From Eubacterium sp. (GTDB lineage Bacteria > Bacillota > Clostridia > Lachnospirales > Lachnospiraceae), in assembly GCA_017445525.1 (NCBI GenBank), contig JAFSTZ010000156.1:1-9334 (forward strand): a stretch of 9,334 nt of DNA. The letters are read 5' to 3'. The notes under the pieces are model-generated. The model worked only from the letters and a program-made list of their open reading frames with translations, did no database searches and was not told the origin of the DNA. Made by a program: the position numbers and the translations under genes. Of the stretch, positions 3,345 to 8,350 are shown piece by piece; position 1 is the first letter of the stretch; every line of letters begins with the position of its first letter.

Positions 3345-4646
3345 ATGTTCGCAGAACTATTTGGACGGTACTTAGTTGATGAAAAAGTGATCACGGATGA
3401 CACCCTGACCAAGCTTCTCAAAGAGCAGGCAGAGACTCGAGTGAAACTGGGTATGATGGCCGTAGCCGAGGGATTTATCACCGCTGAACAGGCAACTGAG
3501 ATCAACCGAAAGCAGCAGAAGGAGGACAAGCGTTTCGGTGATATCGCTATCGAGATCGGCGCTCTGACAGAGGCGCAGCTTAACTCCCTTTTGGACAAGC
3601 AGGGAAGCCCTTACATGAGATTTATACAGATCCTGGTAGACGAGACCGATGTCGAGGCGCATGATATAGACGGTCACCTCGAGGGATTCAGAAAGAAAAA
3701 CGGTTTTGACCAGACTGAGCTCGACGCCATCAAAGAGGAGAATGTCGGTGGATACATCTCCGCATTTGCGACAGCTTCGCAGCCTTATGTATCAAATATC
3801 GCCGGTCAGGTTTTGAGAAATATGATCCGCTTTGTCAGCAGTGATTTCTATATCGACAAGCTGCGCAGAGTGGCTGAGGTACCCTATCAGACTCTCGCCA
3901 TACAGCGTTGCCACGGTGATCACTCCATCTATATCGGATTGCTTACCGAGGACAATGACGATGTTTTCCGTATGATCGCGGAGCATATCACAGGCGAGAA
4001 ATATGACTCTATGACTCCCGAGGTTTACGATGCAGTGGGTGAGTTCATAAACGGAGTCAGTGGTTTGATCACAACCGAGCTTGCAAGTGAGCGCATGATC
4101 ATAGAGATCTCTCCGCAGTCATTTTACGAAAAACAGATCATACAGGGGCGCGGTTATATCCTGCCCATCTACATAGAAGGACAGTTGATAGAGCTCTACA
4201 TAGCAGTTGATACCGAGGTGAATGTCGGACTGAACCCCATGGACATCCGCGTTAAGGTAAACACCACAAAGTCCGAGGGCGCAGATGGCAAGCCGACTGT
4301 ACTTATAGTAGATGACTCCGGCTGGTCCAGAACGATCCTGAGAAATCTTCTCGAGAAGAATGATTTTGCCATCATCGGTGAGGCAGGCGACGGCGAGGAG
4401 GCCGTAGAAGCTTACAAGAAACTCAATCCGGATATCGTCACTCTCGATATCACCATGCCGAAGAAGGATGGTATAGAGGCTCTTGCGGATATCATGGCTT
4501 ACGATAAGGACGCCAAGGTAGCGATGATCACCTCCGCAGGTCAGAGAAGCAAGGTGCTCGAGTCACTGAAGCTCGGTGCCGAGAAGTTCATAACCAAGCC
4601 GTTTGATCCGAACCTGGTACTGACGGAGTTGAAGTCACTCATCTGA
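3345..4646 (+). CDS. Chemotaxis-type protein: GspE-N-like, CheX/CheC-like and CheY domains
   Basis: 433 residues with GGAGGG at 3334-3339 before the ATG. Residues about 1-90 contain repeated short helical units (FGRYLVDEKVIT; AVAEGFIT; DIAIEIGALT) like the N-terminal region of type II secretion/pilus ATPases (GspE-N/MshEN type). Residues about 145-305 resemble the CheX/CheC/FliY phosphatase fold and hold the ExxN motif as E233-F-I-N236 within EFINGVSG. Residues about 317-433 are a complete CheY-type receiver with D323/D324, phospho-acceptor D368 in LDITMPKKDG, T396 and K418. By family knowledge CheX removes phosphate from CheY-P, so the protein may regulate its own or a partner's receiver. 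No DNA-binding or membrane segment is seen. It is apparently monocistronic, and no other chemotaxis gene is in the window. The first domain assignment is the least certain. Confidence 0.85.
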   Translation: MFAELFGRYLVDEKVITDDTLTKLLKEQAETRVKLGMMAVAEGFITAEQATEINRKQQKEDKRFGDIAIEIGALTEAQLNSLLDKQGSPYMRFIQILVDETDVEAHDIDGHLEGFRKKNGFDQTELDAIKEENVGGYISAFATASQPYVSNIAGQVLRNMIRFVSSDFYIDKLRRVAEVPYQTLAIQRCHGDHSIYIGLLTEDNDDVFRMIAEHITGEKYDSMTPEVYDAVGEFINGVSGLITTELASERMIIEISPQSFYEKQIIQGRGYILPIYIEGQLIELYIAVDTEVNVGLNPMDIRVKVNTTKSEGADGKPTVLIVDDSGWSRTILRNLLEKNDFAIIGEAGDGEEAVEAYKKLNPDIVTLDITMPKKDGIEALADIMAYDKDAKVAMITSAGQRSKVLESLKLGAEKFITKPFDPNLVLTELKSLI

Positions 4647-4740: not shown

Positions 4741-5331
4741 ATGAACTTTACTATCAAAAACGAAGAGGTTGCCAAGTTTAACGAAAGTAAAAACTATGAT
4801 TTTCCCAAGTACACTACTCAGATTATCAATTTAGCAAACCAGAATGCCGGTGCGACAAGACCAGCAAAGATCGGGCAGCTATCTGATTTGTTTCCTGAAT
4901 ACGAACATTCAGGTTATCAAATAGCTATTGAGTATTGGAGAAAATTCTACGTCGATAAATATCCAGATGTTTTTGATACTGCAACCGAGAGTATATTTGC
5001 GCAGATTGAAAACCTACGAAATGCAATTGATCTCATTGATAAAAAAATGGTTAGAGAATGGGTTGAGGATCTAATTATCAATAAAACATATAATGGATTA
5101 TACTTCCAAAAAGCTATCCTCGCTTTTCTCGCAGAGAAGAAAAACACCTCATATAGACTTGCAAATCCCGTCGAAGAGGCTAAAGGAATAGATGGTTTTG
5201 TAGGTGAAACACCATATTCCGTGAAACCCGACACATATAAAACCATGAATCGACTCCCGGAATCAATTGATATTAAAATGATTTATTATACAAAGACGAA
5301 AACCGGATTAAAGATAGAGGTGGAAGATTAA
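4741..5331 (+). CDS. Type II restriction endonuclease, MjaI family (probable CTAG cutter)
   Basis: 196 residues, a typical size for a small type II enzyme. The sequence matches what I recall of the MjaI endonuclease family: the N-terminal block FPKYTTQIINLANQNA followed by TRPAKIGQLSDL, a central helical block with NKTYNGLYFQKAIL, and a catalytic-looking block with E145/E146, GID (D151) and SVK (K162). The last resembles a PD-(D/E)xK-type active site. MjaI cuts CTAG, so the same target is inferred. The ribosome site is a weak AAAGGT seven bases before the ATG and no strong promoter was found, consistent with low expression. The gene is convergent with its methyltransferase and is visibly more AT-rich than the flanking chemotaxis and radA genes, suggesting horizontal transfer. 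The last codons form one arm of the terminator at 5308-5353. Specificity is inferred from family only. Confidence 0.82.
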   Translation: MNFTIKNEEVAKFNESKNYDFPKYTTQIINLANQNAGATRPAKIGQLSDLFPEYEHSGYQIAIEYWRKFYVDKYPDVFDTATESIFAQIENLRNAIDLIDKKMVREWVEDLIINKTYNGLYFQKAILAFLAEKKNTSYRLANPVEEAKGIDGFVGETPYSVKPDTYKTMNRLPESIDIKMIYYTKTKTGLKIEVED

Positions 5332-5353
5332 TATCCTCCACCTCTATCTTTAA
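5308..5353. terminator. Bidirectional terminator between endonuclease and methyltransferase
   Basis: A perfect 17-bp inverted repeat (5308-5324 with 5337-5353, core AAAGATAGAGGTGGA) with a 12-base loop. Both strands leave the stem through TCTTTAA. The left arm encodes the last residues of the endonuclease and the right arm ends six bases before the methyltransferase stop. The T-tracts are short, so strength rests on the long stem. It may also limit antisense read-through between the two convergent genes. Confidence 0.75.
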
Positions 5354-5359
5354 GAGTGC

Positions 5360-6427
5360 TTATATTGCAACATACAGTTGTTTAGGCATCTGTGAGTACT
5401 CTTTATAATAATAATGATAACTGTTATCTATACGTTCATTATAATCTATAAGATCAATCTCAATCGCCATCTCTTGTTTTGTTTTTACCTTAAATCCATG
5501 ATTCTTATTTTTATAGCATCTTTCTCTTTTTTCAATAGGTAGACCATCAATAAATTGCAGGTGATTATTTACCCTCGAACTAATAATCCCGTTGACGTCA
5601 TCAATTTCAACATCTATATTTTTCAACGCAATTTTAGCCATCTCAGGATCAATTTCAACTCCAATACTGTTTCTATTTGAAGCTATGCACGCAATATTCG
5701 TAGTCGCTAATCCAGCAAACGGATCCAAAACGATATCACCATAAGCAGAATACATATTAACAAGTCTATATGGGATTTCAAAAGGAAATGAGGCATTACG
5801 CTCACGTGTGTTTTTTGTTAACAATTTCTTTTGTGAAGTACCTTTAACATCCCATAAATCTGAAAACCATACATTTCTTTCTTCCCAAAAGAAGGCGCTT
5901 TTTTGTCTTAACTCTTTATCTTTTCCTTTAAAAATCCTTTTTCCACCTTTCCTGAATATGAGAATATACTCATGTTCATAAGTTACATATGCACCTGCTG
6001 GATACATCCCGGATCCCATAAACTTATTTGGAGAATTCGACTGTTTTCTCCAAAGAACATCAGGGAGAACACAATATCCCATAGAAAGAAATTTATCAAT
6101 AATCCTCGTATGATTGGAGTATAAACAAAAATTATCATTAACTGTCCTTGTGGCATCTCCAATATTTATACACACAAAACCATTATCAATCAAGACTCTA
6201 TCACATTCTGTCCATATTAAATCCAGTATATCATGCATTTTATTAAACGCAGCATACCCATCTCCATTATCCAACAAGACTTGTATACTTGAATCCTGAT
6301 CGCAAAACATATCATCCCACATCTCTATCATCGGGTACGGAGGAGATGTAACAATCAAATTAATACTTTTATCAGCAATCATGGATAAATCCCTGCTATC
6401 AGCTGTTACGATTGTATGCGTTGTCAT
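5360..6427 (-). CDS. Beta-class DNA methyltransferase, probable N4-cytosine, partner of the MjaI-family enzyme
   Basis: 355 residues. Catalytic motif IV, TSPPY (27-31), comes first, and the AdoMet-binding motif I, LDPFAG (234-239) with GVEID at 256-260, comes near residue 235. This order defines the beta class. TSPPY is typical of enzymes that methylate the exocyclic amino group, frequently N4 of cytosine; the CTAG methyltransferase MthZI is such an enzyme. The usual DPFAGSGTT reads DPFAGLATT here. A Lys/Asp/Tyr-rich tail of about 75 residues follows motif I. The start ATG lies 29 bases inside the radA 3' end, with AAGGA and AAGGGAG just upstream, all within radA codons. Translation is therefore probably coupled to radA and the gene appears to depend on radA transcription. 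It is AT-rich like the endonuclease. N4 chemistry and CTAG specificity are inferences. Confidence 0.88.
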   Translation of the reverse strand: MTTHTIVTADSRDLSMIADKSINLIVTSPPYPMIEMWDDMFCDQDSSIQVLLDNGDGYAAFNKMHDILDLIWTECDRVLIDNGFVCINIGDATRTVNDNFCLYSNHTRIIDKFLSMGYCVLPDVLWRKQSNSPNKFMGSGMYPAGAYVTYEHEYILIFRKGGKRIFKGKDKELRQKSAFFWEERNVWFSDLWDVKGTSQKKLLTKNTRERNASFPFEIPYRLVNMYSAYGDIVLDPFAGLATTNIACIASNRNSIGVEIDPEMAKIALKNIDVEIDDVNGIISSRVNNHLQFIDGLPIEKRERCYKNKNHGFKVKTKQEMAIEIDLIDYNERIDNSYHYYYKEYSQMPKQLYVAI

Positions 6428-7808
6428 TCCTTATCTCCCTTATATGTTTCACACCTACCAGCTTGACATTATCGAACTCTGTGCCTGCCTTGGCAAGTGC
6501 CGCCCGATTGCTCTCCGGGAGCACCACGGTCGTGTATCCTGACTTGACAGCTTCTCTGATGCGCTGCTCTGCCATGGAAACCGCGCGCACCTCTCCGACG
6601 AGACCGACCTCGCCGAAAAACACTGTCTTGCTGTCGTACGCCTTTCCGGTGTGACTTGATATCAGTGCAGCCACTGTTGCGAGATCGAGAGCCGGCTCGA
6701 CTATCTTCATGCCGCCTGCGACATTCACATATGCATCGCAGTCACTTAAGTTTAGGCCATATCTTTTTTCCAGAACAGCCATAAGGAGATTCACCCTGTT
6801 GTAGTCCGTCCCCACAGCGGTACGCCTCGGAACCGGGAAACTCGAGTGACAGACCAGAGCCTGTACTTCTATGAGAAATGCTCTCGTACCCTCCATCGTA
6901 CAGACTACCACGGAACCGGCCTCATCTGTAAGCCTGCCCGCCATCAGATACTCAGAGGGGTTGCTCACCTCGATGAGCCCCTGCTCTCTCATCTCAAAAA
7001 CACCGATCTCTCCGGTGGATCCAAAACGATTCTTGACTCCGCGCAGCATCCTGTACATCGCAGTTTTGTCGCCCTCGAAGTACAGGACCGTATCCACCAT
7101 GTGCTCGAGCATGCGAGGACCTGCGACGTTGCCCTCTTTGGTCACGTGCCCCACTATAAATACGGTGATGCCCCGGCTCTTGGCAAGCTGCAGCAGTATA
7201 CCCGTAACCTCTTTTACCTGCGATACCGATCCCGGAGCGGCATCCACACTCTCCTCAAATACCGTCTGTATCGAGTCGATCACCAGAACCTCCGGAGAGA
7301 CATCATCCACGGCCTCTAGTATGGAACTCATGGAAGTCTCAGAGAACAGCAGCATACCGTCCGTGAAATCGCCTATACGGTCGGCTCTCAGTTTTATCTG
7401 CTTCTCCGACTCCTCACCCGATACGTACAGAGTTCGGACTCCGCTACCTGAGAGCATCCTGCAGGTCTGCAGCAGGAGAGTGGATTTACCGATGCCGGGA
7501 TCCCCTCCGATCAGGATGAGAGATCCCGGTACAATACCTCCTCCGAGCACCCTGTCAAACTCTGCCATGCCGATACTGCGTCGTTTGTCCCCTACAGTCT
7601 CGACCTGTGAGATGGCCACGGGTGCTTTTTTTAAGCCGGCTGATACGGCGGCTTTTTTTCTTGACTCGGAAACTGCTTTTGATTTCAGCTTTGCTGCCTG
7701 TCCTGCGGGAGCCTCAACCAGAGTGTTCCACGCATGACATCCCGGGCACTGCCCCGTCCACTTGCTGGTCTCAGTGCCGCATTCTTTACAGAAAAATAGT
7801 GTCTTCAA
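6399..7808 (-). CDS. radA: DNA repair protein RadA (Sms)
   Basis: A branched-DNA helicase/loader that promotes homologous recombination with RecA. The start is taken as TTG at 7808, giving 469 residues: GGGAGG (7824-7819) lies 10 bases upstream and the product then begins KTLFFCKECG, as RadA proteins do. An in-frame ATG at 7841 has no ribosome site and lies inside a repeat. Features in order: a four-cysteine zinc finger (C7, C10, C21, C24), a Walker A motif GGDPGIGKST, a Walker B region (EVLVIDSIQTV), the RadA signature KNRFGSTGEIG, and a Lon-protease-like C-terminal domain (VNVAGGMKIVEPALDLA). Length is normal. The last codons (RNDNAYNRNS) overlap the methyltransferase start and do not resemble an obvious RadA ending, so the 3' end may have been remodelled when the restriction cassette arrived. 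Confidence 0.96.
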   Translation of the reverse strand: MKTLFFCKECGTETSKWTGQCPGCHAWNTLVEAPAGQAAKLKSKAVSESRKKAAVSAGLKKAPVAISQVETVGDKRRSIGMAEFDRVLGGGIVPGSLILIGGDPGIGKSTLLLQTCRMLSGSGVRTLYVSGEESEKQIKLRADRIGDFTDGMLLFSETSMSSILEAVDDVSPEVLVIDSIQTVFEESVDAAPGSVSQVKEVTGILLQLAKSRGITVFIVGHVTKEGNVAGPRMLEHMVDTVLYFEGDKTAMYRMLRGVKNRFGSTGEIGVFEMREQGLIEVSNPSEYLMAGRLTDEAGSVVVCTMEGTRAFLIEVQALVCHSSFPVPRRTAVGTDYNRVNLLMAVLEKRYGLNLSDCDAYVNVAGGMKIVEPALDLATVAALISSHTGKAYDSKTVFFGEVGLVGEVRAVSMAEQRIREAVKSGYTTVVLPESNRAALAKAGTEFDNVKLVGVKHIREIRNDNAYNRNS

Positions 7809-7825
7809 AAAACGACAACCTCCCT

Positions 7826-7861
7826 GTCGTTGTTGATACATAAGACTGTTCGTGACAGCCG
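7826..7861. repeat. 36-bp direct repeat, copy A
   Basis: This copy matches the one at 7899-7934 at 32 of 36 positions, differing at one base near the middle and at a three-base block. The period between copies is 73 bp. Read on the minus strand it begins CGGCTGTCACGAACAGTC, which can form a small CTGT/ACAG stem, and ends CAACAACGAC. It contains the in-frame ATG (7841) upstream of radA; copy B has ACG there. Confidence 0.85.
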
Positions 7862-7862
7862 C

Positions 7863-7898
7863 ATGAACCGTGTGCTCTTACCAACTGAGCTATCCCGC
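7863..7898 (-). pseudogene. 5' half of a tRNA-like sequence with CAT anticodon
   Basis: On the minus strand the sequence starts GCGGGATAGCTCAGTTGG, followed by TAAGAGC, giving an acceptor-like strand, T8-A9 and a perfect D arm (GCTC, loop AGTTGGTAA, GAGC). It continues A, CACGG, TT, then CAT at the anticodon position. It then leaves the tRNA pattern: no matching CCGTG, no T-arm TTCAA and no 3' acceptor strand ATCCCGC follow. It therefore cannot be a working tRNA and looks like the 5' half of a Met-type tRNA broken just after the anticodon. It is enclosed exactly by the two 36-bp repeats. Confidence 0.7.
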
Positions 7899-7934
7899 GT
7901 CGTTGTTGATACGTAAGACTGTCTATGACAGCCG
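7899..7934. repeat. 36-bp direct repeat, copy B
   Basis: This partner of the copy at 7826-7861 begins directly after the tRNA half and ends three bases before the stop codon of the small gene (stop at 7939-7937). On the minus strand it contains CTGTC-ATA-GACAG, a perfect short hairpin that is partly broken in copy A. Repeat, tRNA half and repeat together form about one and a half units of a 73-bp tandem duplication. Confidence 0.85.
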
Positions 7935-7936
7935 GC

Positions 7937-8350
7937 TTACAGCTTTGATATCTGTATGGAAGCCTTCTTGCCTGCATCCAGTTCGATACTTGCATTCAGC
8001 TTGCCGCCGACATTTGTCTGGATACTGCCTGCCGACTCGCCGTTTACATCCAGCTTGTACAGTGTATCCGGCTCAAGCTCCACGGTAAATGAAAGGTCGC
8101 CCGGCGCCTCTACATCAAAGGATAACTTGTCCGTATCACCCTTAAAGTTTGTCACGGTAGATCCCGGGACCGACTCATATACCATAGTTCCGTTTTTCTC
8201 CAGTTTTGTGATCTCTTTAAAGGTTTTGATCTTGTAGGATGCTCCGCCATACGGAAAATCCGATTTTTTAGTCTTCTCACCAAGCTCGTAATTGCCGAAG
8301 CTCAAAGATCCGTCACTTTCCTCCCGGATAAGTTCCTCTACTACACTCAT
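7937..8350 (-). CDS. Conserved small protein, function unknown
   Basis: 137 residues, with GGAGG (8360-8356) five bases before the ATG. No signal peptide or membrane helix is present. The protein opens with an acidic segment (MSVVEELIREESDGSLSFG), has a Lys-rich middle (YKIKTFKEITKLEKNG), and ends with alternating strand-like segments (LSFDVEAPGDLSFTVELEPDTLYKLDVNG) and a Gly/Lys-rich tail. The pattern suggests a small soluble beta-sandwich. I recall similar proteins in Lachnospiraceae genomes, some carrying the label endosialidase, but nothing catalytic is visible and I do not adopt that name. It lies upstream of radA on the same strand, separated by the repeat/tRNA-half region. Its promoter is probably at 8553-8525. 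Confidence 0.85.
   Translation of the reverse strand: MSVVEELIREESDGSLSFGNYELGEKTKKSDFPYGGASYKIKTFKEITKLEKNGTMVYESVPGSTVTNFKGDTDKLSFDVEAPGDLSFTVELEPDTLYKLDVNGESAGSIQTNVGGKLNASIELDAGKKASIQISKL

Follow-up and report, generated by a model that had tools for sequence, protein, structure and literature searches.

Organisation of the radA locus

The window, a stretch of 9,334 nucleotides from a draft genome of Eubacterium sp. (contig JAFSTZ010000156.1), contains a single repeat-spacer-repeat unit of CRISPR geometry at positions 7826-7934, where a sequence previously described as a tRNA half occupies the spacer slot. The analysis covers this one locus in this one draft genome. The features of the region between radA and its upstream neighbour are as follows.

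6399..7808, minus strand: radA, probably starting with TTG (7808-7806), 10 nt past GGAGG
7811..7831, minus strand: 8-bp stem (one G-U) in which the end of copy A (AACGAC) plus AG pair with the radA flank, TTGTCGTT
7826..7861, minus strand: repeat copy A, with the weaker hairpin, holding an upstream in-frame ATG (7839-7841)
7862..7898, minus strand: spacer-like insert of 37 bp, corresponding to nt 2-37 of the host tRNA-Met(cat) with two transitions (nt 6 and nt 37)
7899..7934, minus strand: repeat copy B, first in the direction of radA, starting 2 bp past the q137 stop codon
7937..8350, minus strand: q137, coding for a 137-aa protein without a Pfam match, often located upstream of radA in relatives

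On the minus strand the q137 stop (7937) is followed, after 2 bp, by copy B (7934-7899), the insert (7898-7862), copy A (7861-7826), the motif AGGGAGG and radA. Each copy (7826-7861 and 7899-7934) has a length of 36 nt; the two lie 73 bp apart and are identical at 32/36 positions, with all four differences being transitions. The best pair of 36-nt segments at a spacing of 50-100 bp in 100 first-order Markov windows reaches at most 24/36. The 36-bp repeats flanking a tRNA 5' part, as described in the initial annotation, are borne out. Copy B can fold into a hairpin of 7 bp, one of them G-T (G-U): GGCTGTC-ATA-GACAGTC. The border of the repeat is ambiguous by one base, such that parses of 36/37 and 35/38 (repeat/insert) are both valid; in the 35-bp repeat/38-bp insert parse the repeat reads G...C, i.e. 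there is a G at both target borders. CRISPR arrays are composed of direct repeats of approximately 23-55 bp with unique spacers of comparable length between them, and the unit has such dimensions (36/37/36), though with just two repeats and one spacer. This geometry went unrecognised in the initial annotation, the interpretation of which is partly supported by the present analysis. The period of 73 bp, which had been likened to the length of a tRNA, is the sum of repeat and spacer and need not reflect tRNA length.

The radA open reading frame, when extended to the in-frame upstream ATG, spans positions 6399-7841. Among the best 120 RadA homologues listed, from the 8000 candidates with the most shared words that were scored, the nearest shows 95% identity across the 200 residues searched and begins with MKTLFFCKEC, which argues for the TTG start and for the ATG in copy A being spurious, as had been proposed. 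The source names of RadA homologues, 'Lachnospiraceae bacterium' and 'Eubacterium sp.', make a placement of the host in the Lachnospiraceae likely. RadA of the closest relative's genome that was compared is 87% identical. The likely ribosome-binding site, GGAGG, is located in the 5-nt loop of the stem that ties copy A to the sequence before radA. A straddling stem of equal length is obtained with 3.4% (G-U allowed) or 1.4% (Watson-Crick) of shuffled flanks and with 0.9% (G-U allowed) or 0.7% (Watson-Crick) of random window flanks (20,000 each). As this stem joins copy A to the radA flank, with a chance expectation of 0.7-3.4%, copy A seems to be an original part of the radA leader, a result that is suggestive rather than decisive. 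In a scan for promoters and terminators the counts lie inside the spread of the shuffles, and the sole terminator-like site is the hairpin of copy A.

A RadA match is present in 36 relatives, and the radA loci of 29 of them were examined. The q137 gene is directly upstream of radA in 16 of the 29 loci, upstream with a gap of approximately 1 kb in one, downstream in four and absent from the stretch examined in eight. It is thus found near radA in 21/29 loci, at 64-85% identity, with the downstream side being occupied in four close relatives. Given that the directly upstream position is the commonest arrangement (16/29), the unit sits in an established gene junction. The repeat unit itself is present in none of the 29 radA loci.

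Origin of the spacer-like insert

The insert (7862-7898, minus strand) matches a locus of the same draft genome (G000:C297:10362-10397) at 35/36 positions (E 9.5e-11), which ARAGORN identifies as an intact tRNA-Met(cat) gene adjoining a tRNA-Val gene. The proposed tRNA 5' part with a CAT anticodon can thus be assigned to the host's own tRNA-Met(cat), and the search of the host for a similar tRNA, suggested as a check, yields an intact gene. In keeping with the earlier view that no complete tRNA is present at the locus, ARAGORN predicts neither a tRNA nor a tmRNA in the window. No Rfam family matches the window at gathering thresholds, nor is there a match up to E 1 in 7750-8050.

When the insert and the tRNA are aligned, with the canonical tRNA numbering assigned by eye, nt 2 to 36 contain one mismatch, nt 37 is a mismatch (A to G) and nt 38 is a match, after which the repeat begins. 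Since nt 37 differs and nt 38 matches, the stop at the anticodon that had been noted is only apparent and reflects one substitution together with the repeat border, which is itself uncertain by one base. The nt-38 match also weakens the case for an anticodon-cleavage product as the source of the spacer. The tRNA stretch is found at three or fewer mismatches in 31 of the 39 same-genus genomes, this genome included, and the combination of variants in the insert is equalled by none of the tRNA genes listed among the same-genus genomes. A single exact pattern for a tRNA-Met 5' part with any base but A at nt 37 has a match in 1/397 family genomes, that of the host. The exact 36-mer of the insert is found in no IMG/VR contig, and a phage origin of the spacer was rejected on this basis.

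Distribution of the repeat and comparison with CRISPR arrays

No further copy of the repeat is found in the host draft genome. At three or fewer mismatches it is absent from 60 relatives and from 391 other genomes of the order, representing 425 distinct genomes (26 are in both sets), and the sole match in the two genome scans (61 and 392 genomes) is the window's own. The further copies for which a search of the host and of related genomes had been suggested are therefore lacking in the draft genome and, at this threshold, across these 425 relatives. Exact core patterns of the repeat are likewise absent from GTDB r220 and IMG/VR, collections from which the window's own or very near genome records were possibly left out. 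Phages provide three matches of only 17-20 bp (E 1-5) and plasmids none. A tRNA array collapsed by tandem duplication, one of the origins initially put forward, is not supported, given the lack of a 3' half, repeats that are not tRNA and the lack of another repeat copy in the genome or its relatives. By the measure of a known repeat family or a copy elsewhere, the unit does not qualify as a CRISPR array in the host genome, the relatives, Rfam, GTDB r220 or IMG/VR. CRISPR repeats are generally common to relatives, whereas a duplicated segment of a local leader has no such spread. The private nature of this repeat is thus more in line with duplication of local sequence than with a CRISPR repeat family.

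Pairs of at least 26/30 identity at a spacing of 58-89 bp were sought in 66 non-redundant sequences (388,114 bp), comprising the window and loci picked mostly around cas1, radA or tRNA genes, a set that is array-enriched by design. Such pairs occur at 21 places, namely 19 in CRISPR arrays (16 by array listing, with L013, L014 and L018 assigned from the repeat sequence), one run of N (L052) and the window. The run of N aside, the window thus holds the only unit of this kind outside arrays in the 388,114 bp scanned. Arrays are present in 15 of the 18 cas1 regions examined, which represent 18 of the 23 cas1 places, with repeat/spacer medians of about 36/30, 33/34-35, 30/35-37, 35/34-35 and 37/36. 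The nearest geometries are those of L072 (37/36, spacers of 35-38 bp) and L074 (35/34-35, spacers of 31-39 bp). Periods of 72-75 bp are found in L072, and the spacings include 74 bp in L074 and reach up to 75 bp in L018. The repeat of the window is in none of these arrays. The closest geometry seen in the genus is that of the L072 array (G006:C61, 8308-9002), with its 37-bp repeat and 35-38 bp spacers.

Cas machinery

Neither Cas1 or Cas2 nor a reverse transcriptase (RVT_1) was found in the host draft genome, an absence that carries little weight as the genome is 84.9% complete (5.67% contamination) and is distributed over 461 contigs. Cas1 is encoded in 17 of the 39 same-genus genomes. Two CRISPR repeat patterns of the genus, which we take to be II-A-like and I-C-like, are absent from the host genome at three or fewer mismatches. 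The nine window proteins that were run through Pfam include no cas gene product or transposase. The target junction agrees with the type I-C-like leader-repeat junctions of relatives at 7/10 positions. As 6.2% of window positions reach at least 7, this is not significant.

Origin of the unit

A Cas1-Cas2 integrase attacks each end of a repeat-length target by strand transfer, the two transfers being staggered, and gap repair then duplicates the target. The anatomy of the unit points, with about even confidence, to the off-target action of a Cas1-Cas2-type integrase, which may have put a tRNA-Met fragment into the radA leader and duplicated a target of 35-36 bp. Here a prespacer of 37-38 bp would have been joined to the leader by a pair of strand transfers with a stagger of about 35 bp, and gap filling would then have copied the target on both sides, giving the repeat-length duplication. 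The integrase may have belonged to a CRISPR system that has since been lost or is absent from the assembly, or it may have been active in an ancestor. The copies would afterwards have drifted apart (four transitions) to leave a decaying 'neo-CRISPR' scar, predicted to be carried in a q137-radA transcript as a passive leader. We infer this mechanism from the anatomy: a repeat-length duplication surrounds a spacer-length insert, as expected of a neo-CRISPR locus, and would stem from copying of a single-copy target. The unit probably has no working guide or immune function, because no effector is known here, a leader is lacking and a near-perfect target on the chromosome would come at a cost. A preference of Cas1 for guanine at both target borders and off-target plasmid integration in vitro are described in PMC6895254. 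The 35/38 parse fits this preference as each strand of the target has G as its first base. Off-target integration in vivo is attributed to Nivala 2018 in PMC9456107 and PMC11788318. Several observations count against the insertion, however: neither Cas1 nor Cas2 was found in the incomplete draft genome, the target junction is not significant, no PAM was recognised by eye beside the tRNA protospacer, none of the 337 spacers in 13 arrays of the genus is tRNA-derived by a crude motif, and the window dimensions of 36/37 or 35/38 are the median of no array in the 15 regions. Of the suggestion that an element had integrated at an anticodon, the scar with target duplication is close to this preferred reading; the anticodon as the site is not supported, since it is the radA leader that holds the insertion, the matching tRNA gene is intact and the endpoint at the anticodon is a substitution at nt 37.

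The unit could instead be the relic of a real CRISPR array, whose system would be of an unsampled subtype and either lost or unassembled. Its last remaining spacer would match the host's own tRNA-Met, and its repeats would have diverged. The geometry, the hairpin inside the repeat and the divergence of the copies all suit such a relic, and orphan arrays and mini-arrays are documented in PMC8616872. It is nonetheless an alternative that we consider unlikely, if still appreciable, as the repeat occurs in no other genome or virus searched (the collection scans being for exact patterns) and has no Rfam match. No AT-rich leader is recognisable by eye, the flanks being the coding end of q137 and the radA ribosome-binding site; the unit starts 2 bp past a stop codon, and copy A, at its far end, takes part in a stem with that ribosome-binding site. 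A one-off event could also be explained without Cas proteins, of which Cas1 and Cas2 were both not found in the draft genome, by templated repair of a staggered break, where the ends were filled in to give the 36-bp duplication and a short piece of tRNA-Met DNA or cDNA served as filler. This appears improbable: RVT_1 has no match in the genome, a stagger of approximately 36 bp with a filler of approximately 37 bp would agree with CRISPR dimensions only by an odd chance, and the 388 kb scanned, mostly around cas1, radA or tRNA genes, hold no similar unit outside arrays. The initial annotation had also raised a tRNA-mimicking element in the radA leader, and this is retained as a weak rival, in which hairpins and tRNA mimic would regulate radA by attenuation or tRNA-responsive control. 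The 130-nt leader does fold somewhat better than its shuffles (z -2.08, with 5/200 shuffles equally good) and displays GGAGG in a loop. The unit is, however, absent from the radA loci of 29 relatives, lacks an Rfam match and contains an incomplete tRNA, and a functional leader element is accordingly thought very improbable.

A further reading, which we regard as rather doubtful, holds that the tRNA-Met fragment was taken up, possibly in RNA form through a reverse-transcribing Cas1, and that its entry into a gene leader outside any array was the natural founding event of a CRISPR locus seeded by the host's own tRNA. RT-Cas1 is reported to add untemplated bases at RNA 3' ends (PMC11014452), and the G at nt 37 would fit such a base; a plain substitution is simpler, since nt 38 matches.

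Relation to known systems

The unit resembles the neo-CRISPR loci of Nivala, Shipman and Church (2018), as far as these are outlined in the sources cited, in having a spacer outside an array and a repeat-length target duplication. It differs in that the insert is a host tRNA-Met fragment, the copies have already diverged and no integrase was found in the draft genome. Orphan and mini CRISPR arrays with self-targeting spacers, as summarised in PMC6990116 and PMC8616872, share the repeat-spacer-repeat order, the self match and the lack of cas genes among the Pfam-run window proteins. Unlike these, the present unit has no leader, its repeat is found nowhere else searched and it is positioned between two chromosomal genes. 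The tRNA-homing anchor spacer of type V-K CRISPR-transposons is similarly a CRISPR-type spacer that matches a tRNA gene, but the account in PMC9938897 gives it 17 nt bordered by a truncated repeat, a GTN PAM, and Cas12k and transposase genes. Here the spacer is 37 nt between two full repeats, with no such genes among the nine Pfam-run window proteins, and a type V-K homing spacer was rejected. For the RNA-derived spacers of RT-Cas1 systems (described in PMC11014452 and PMC6753606), an RNA source is conceivable here too and an untemplated 3' base would fit the nt-37 G. The host genome, in contrast, yielded no Cas1 or RVT_1, and the nt-38 match favours the simpler substitution. None of the titles and abstract openings listed in literature searches on tRNA-derived or off-target insertions describes a tRNA insertion of this kind.

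To our knowledge, there are few natural cases in which a CRISPR integrase has acted outside an array. Such cases bear on the origin of new CRISPR loci and on how frequently an integrase writes into its host genome. As the inserted piece is readable together with the gene that probably donated it and the target presumed to have been duplicated, the event proposed for the radA leader is directly testable from strain-level sequence.

Genes downstream of radA

An MjaI-family restriction endonuclease (PF09568) and a convergent N6/N4 DNA methylase (PF01555) are encoded at 4741-6427, with a 21-bp inverted repeat (5308-5353) located between them. The methylase open reading frame overlaps the 3' end of radA, suggesting that the pair was inserted directly downstream of this gene. 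Further along, at 3345-4646, a CheX-like domain is fused to a C-terminal response-regulator receiver domain.
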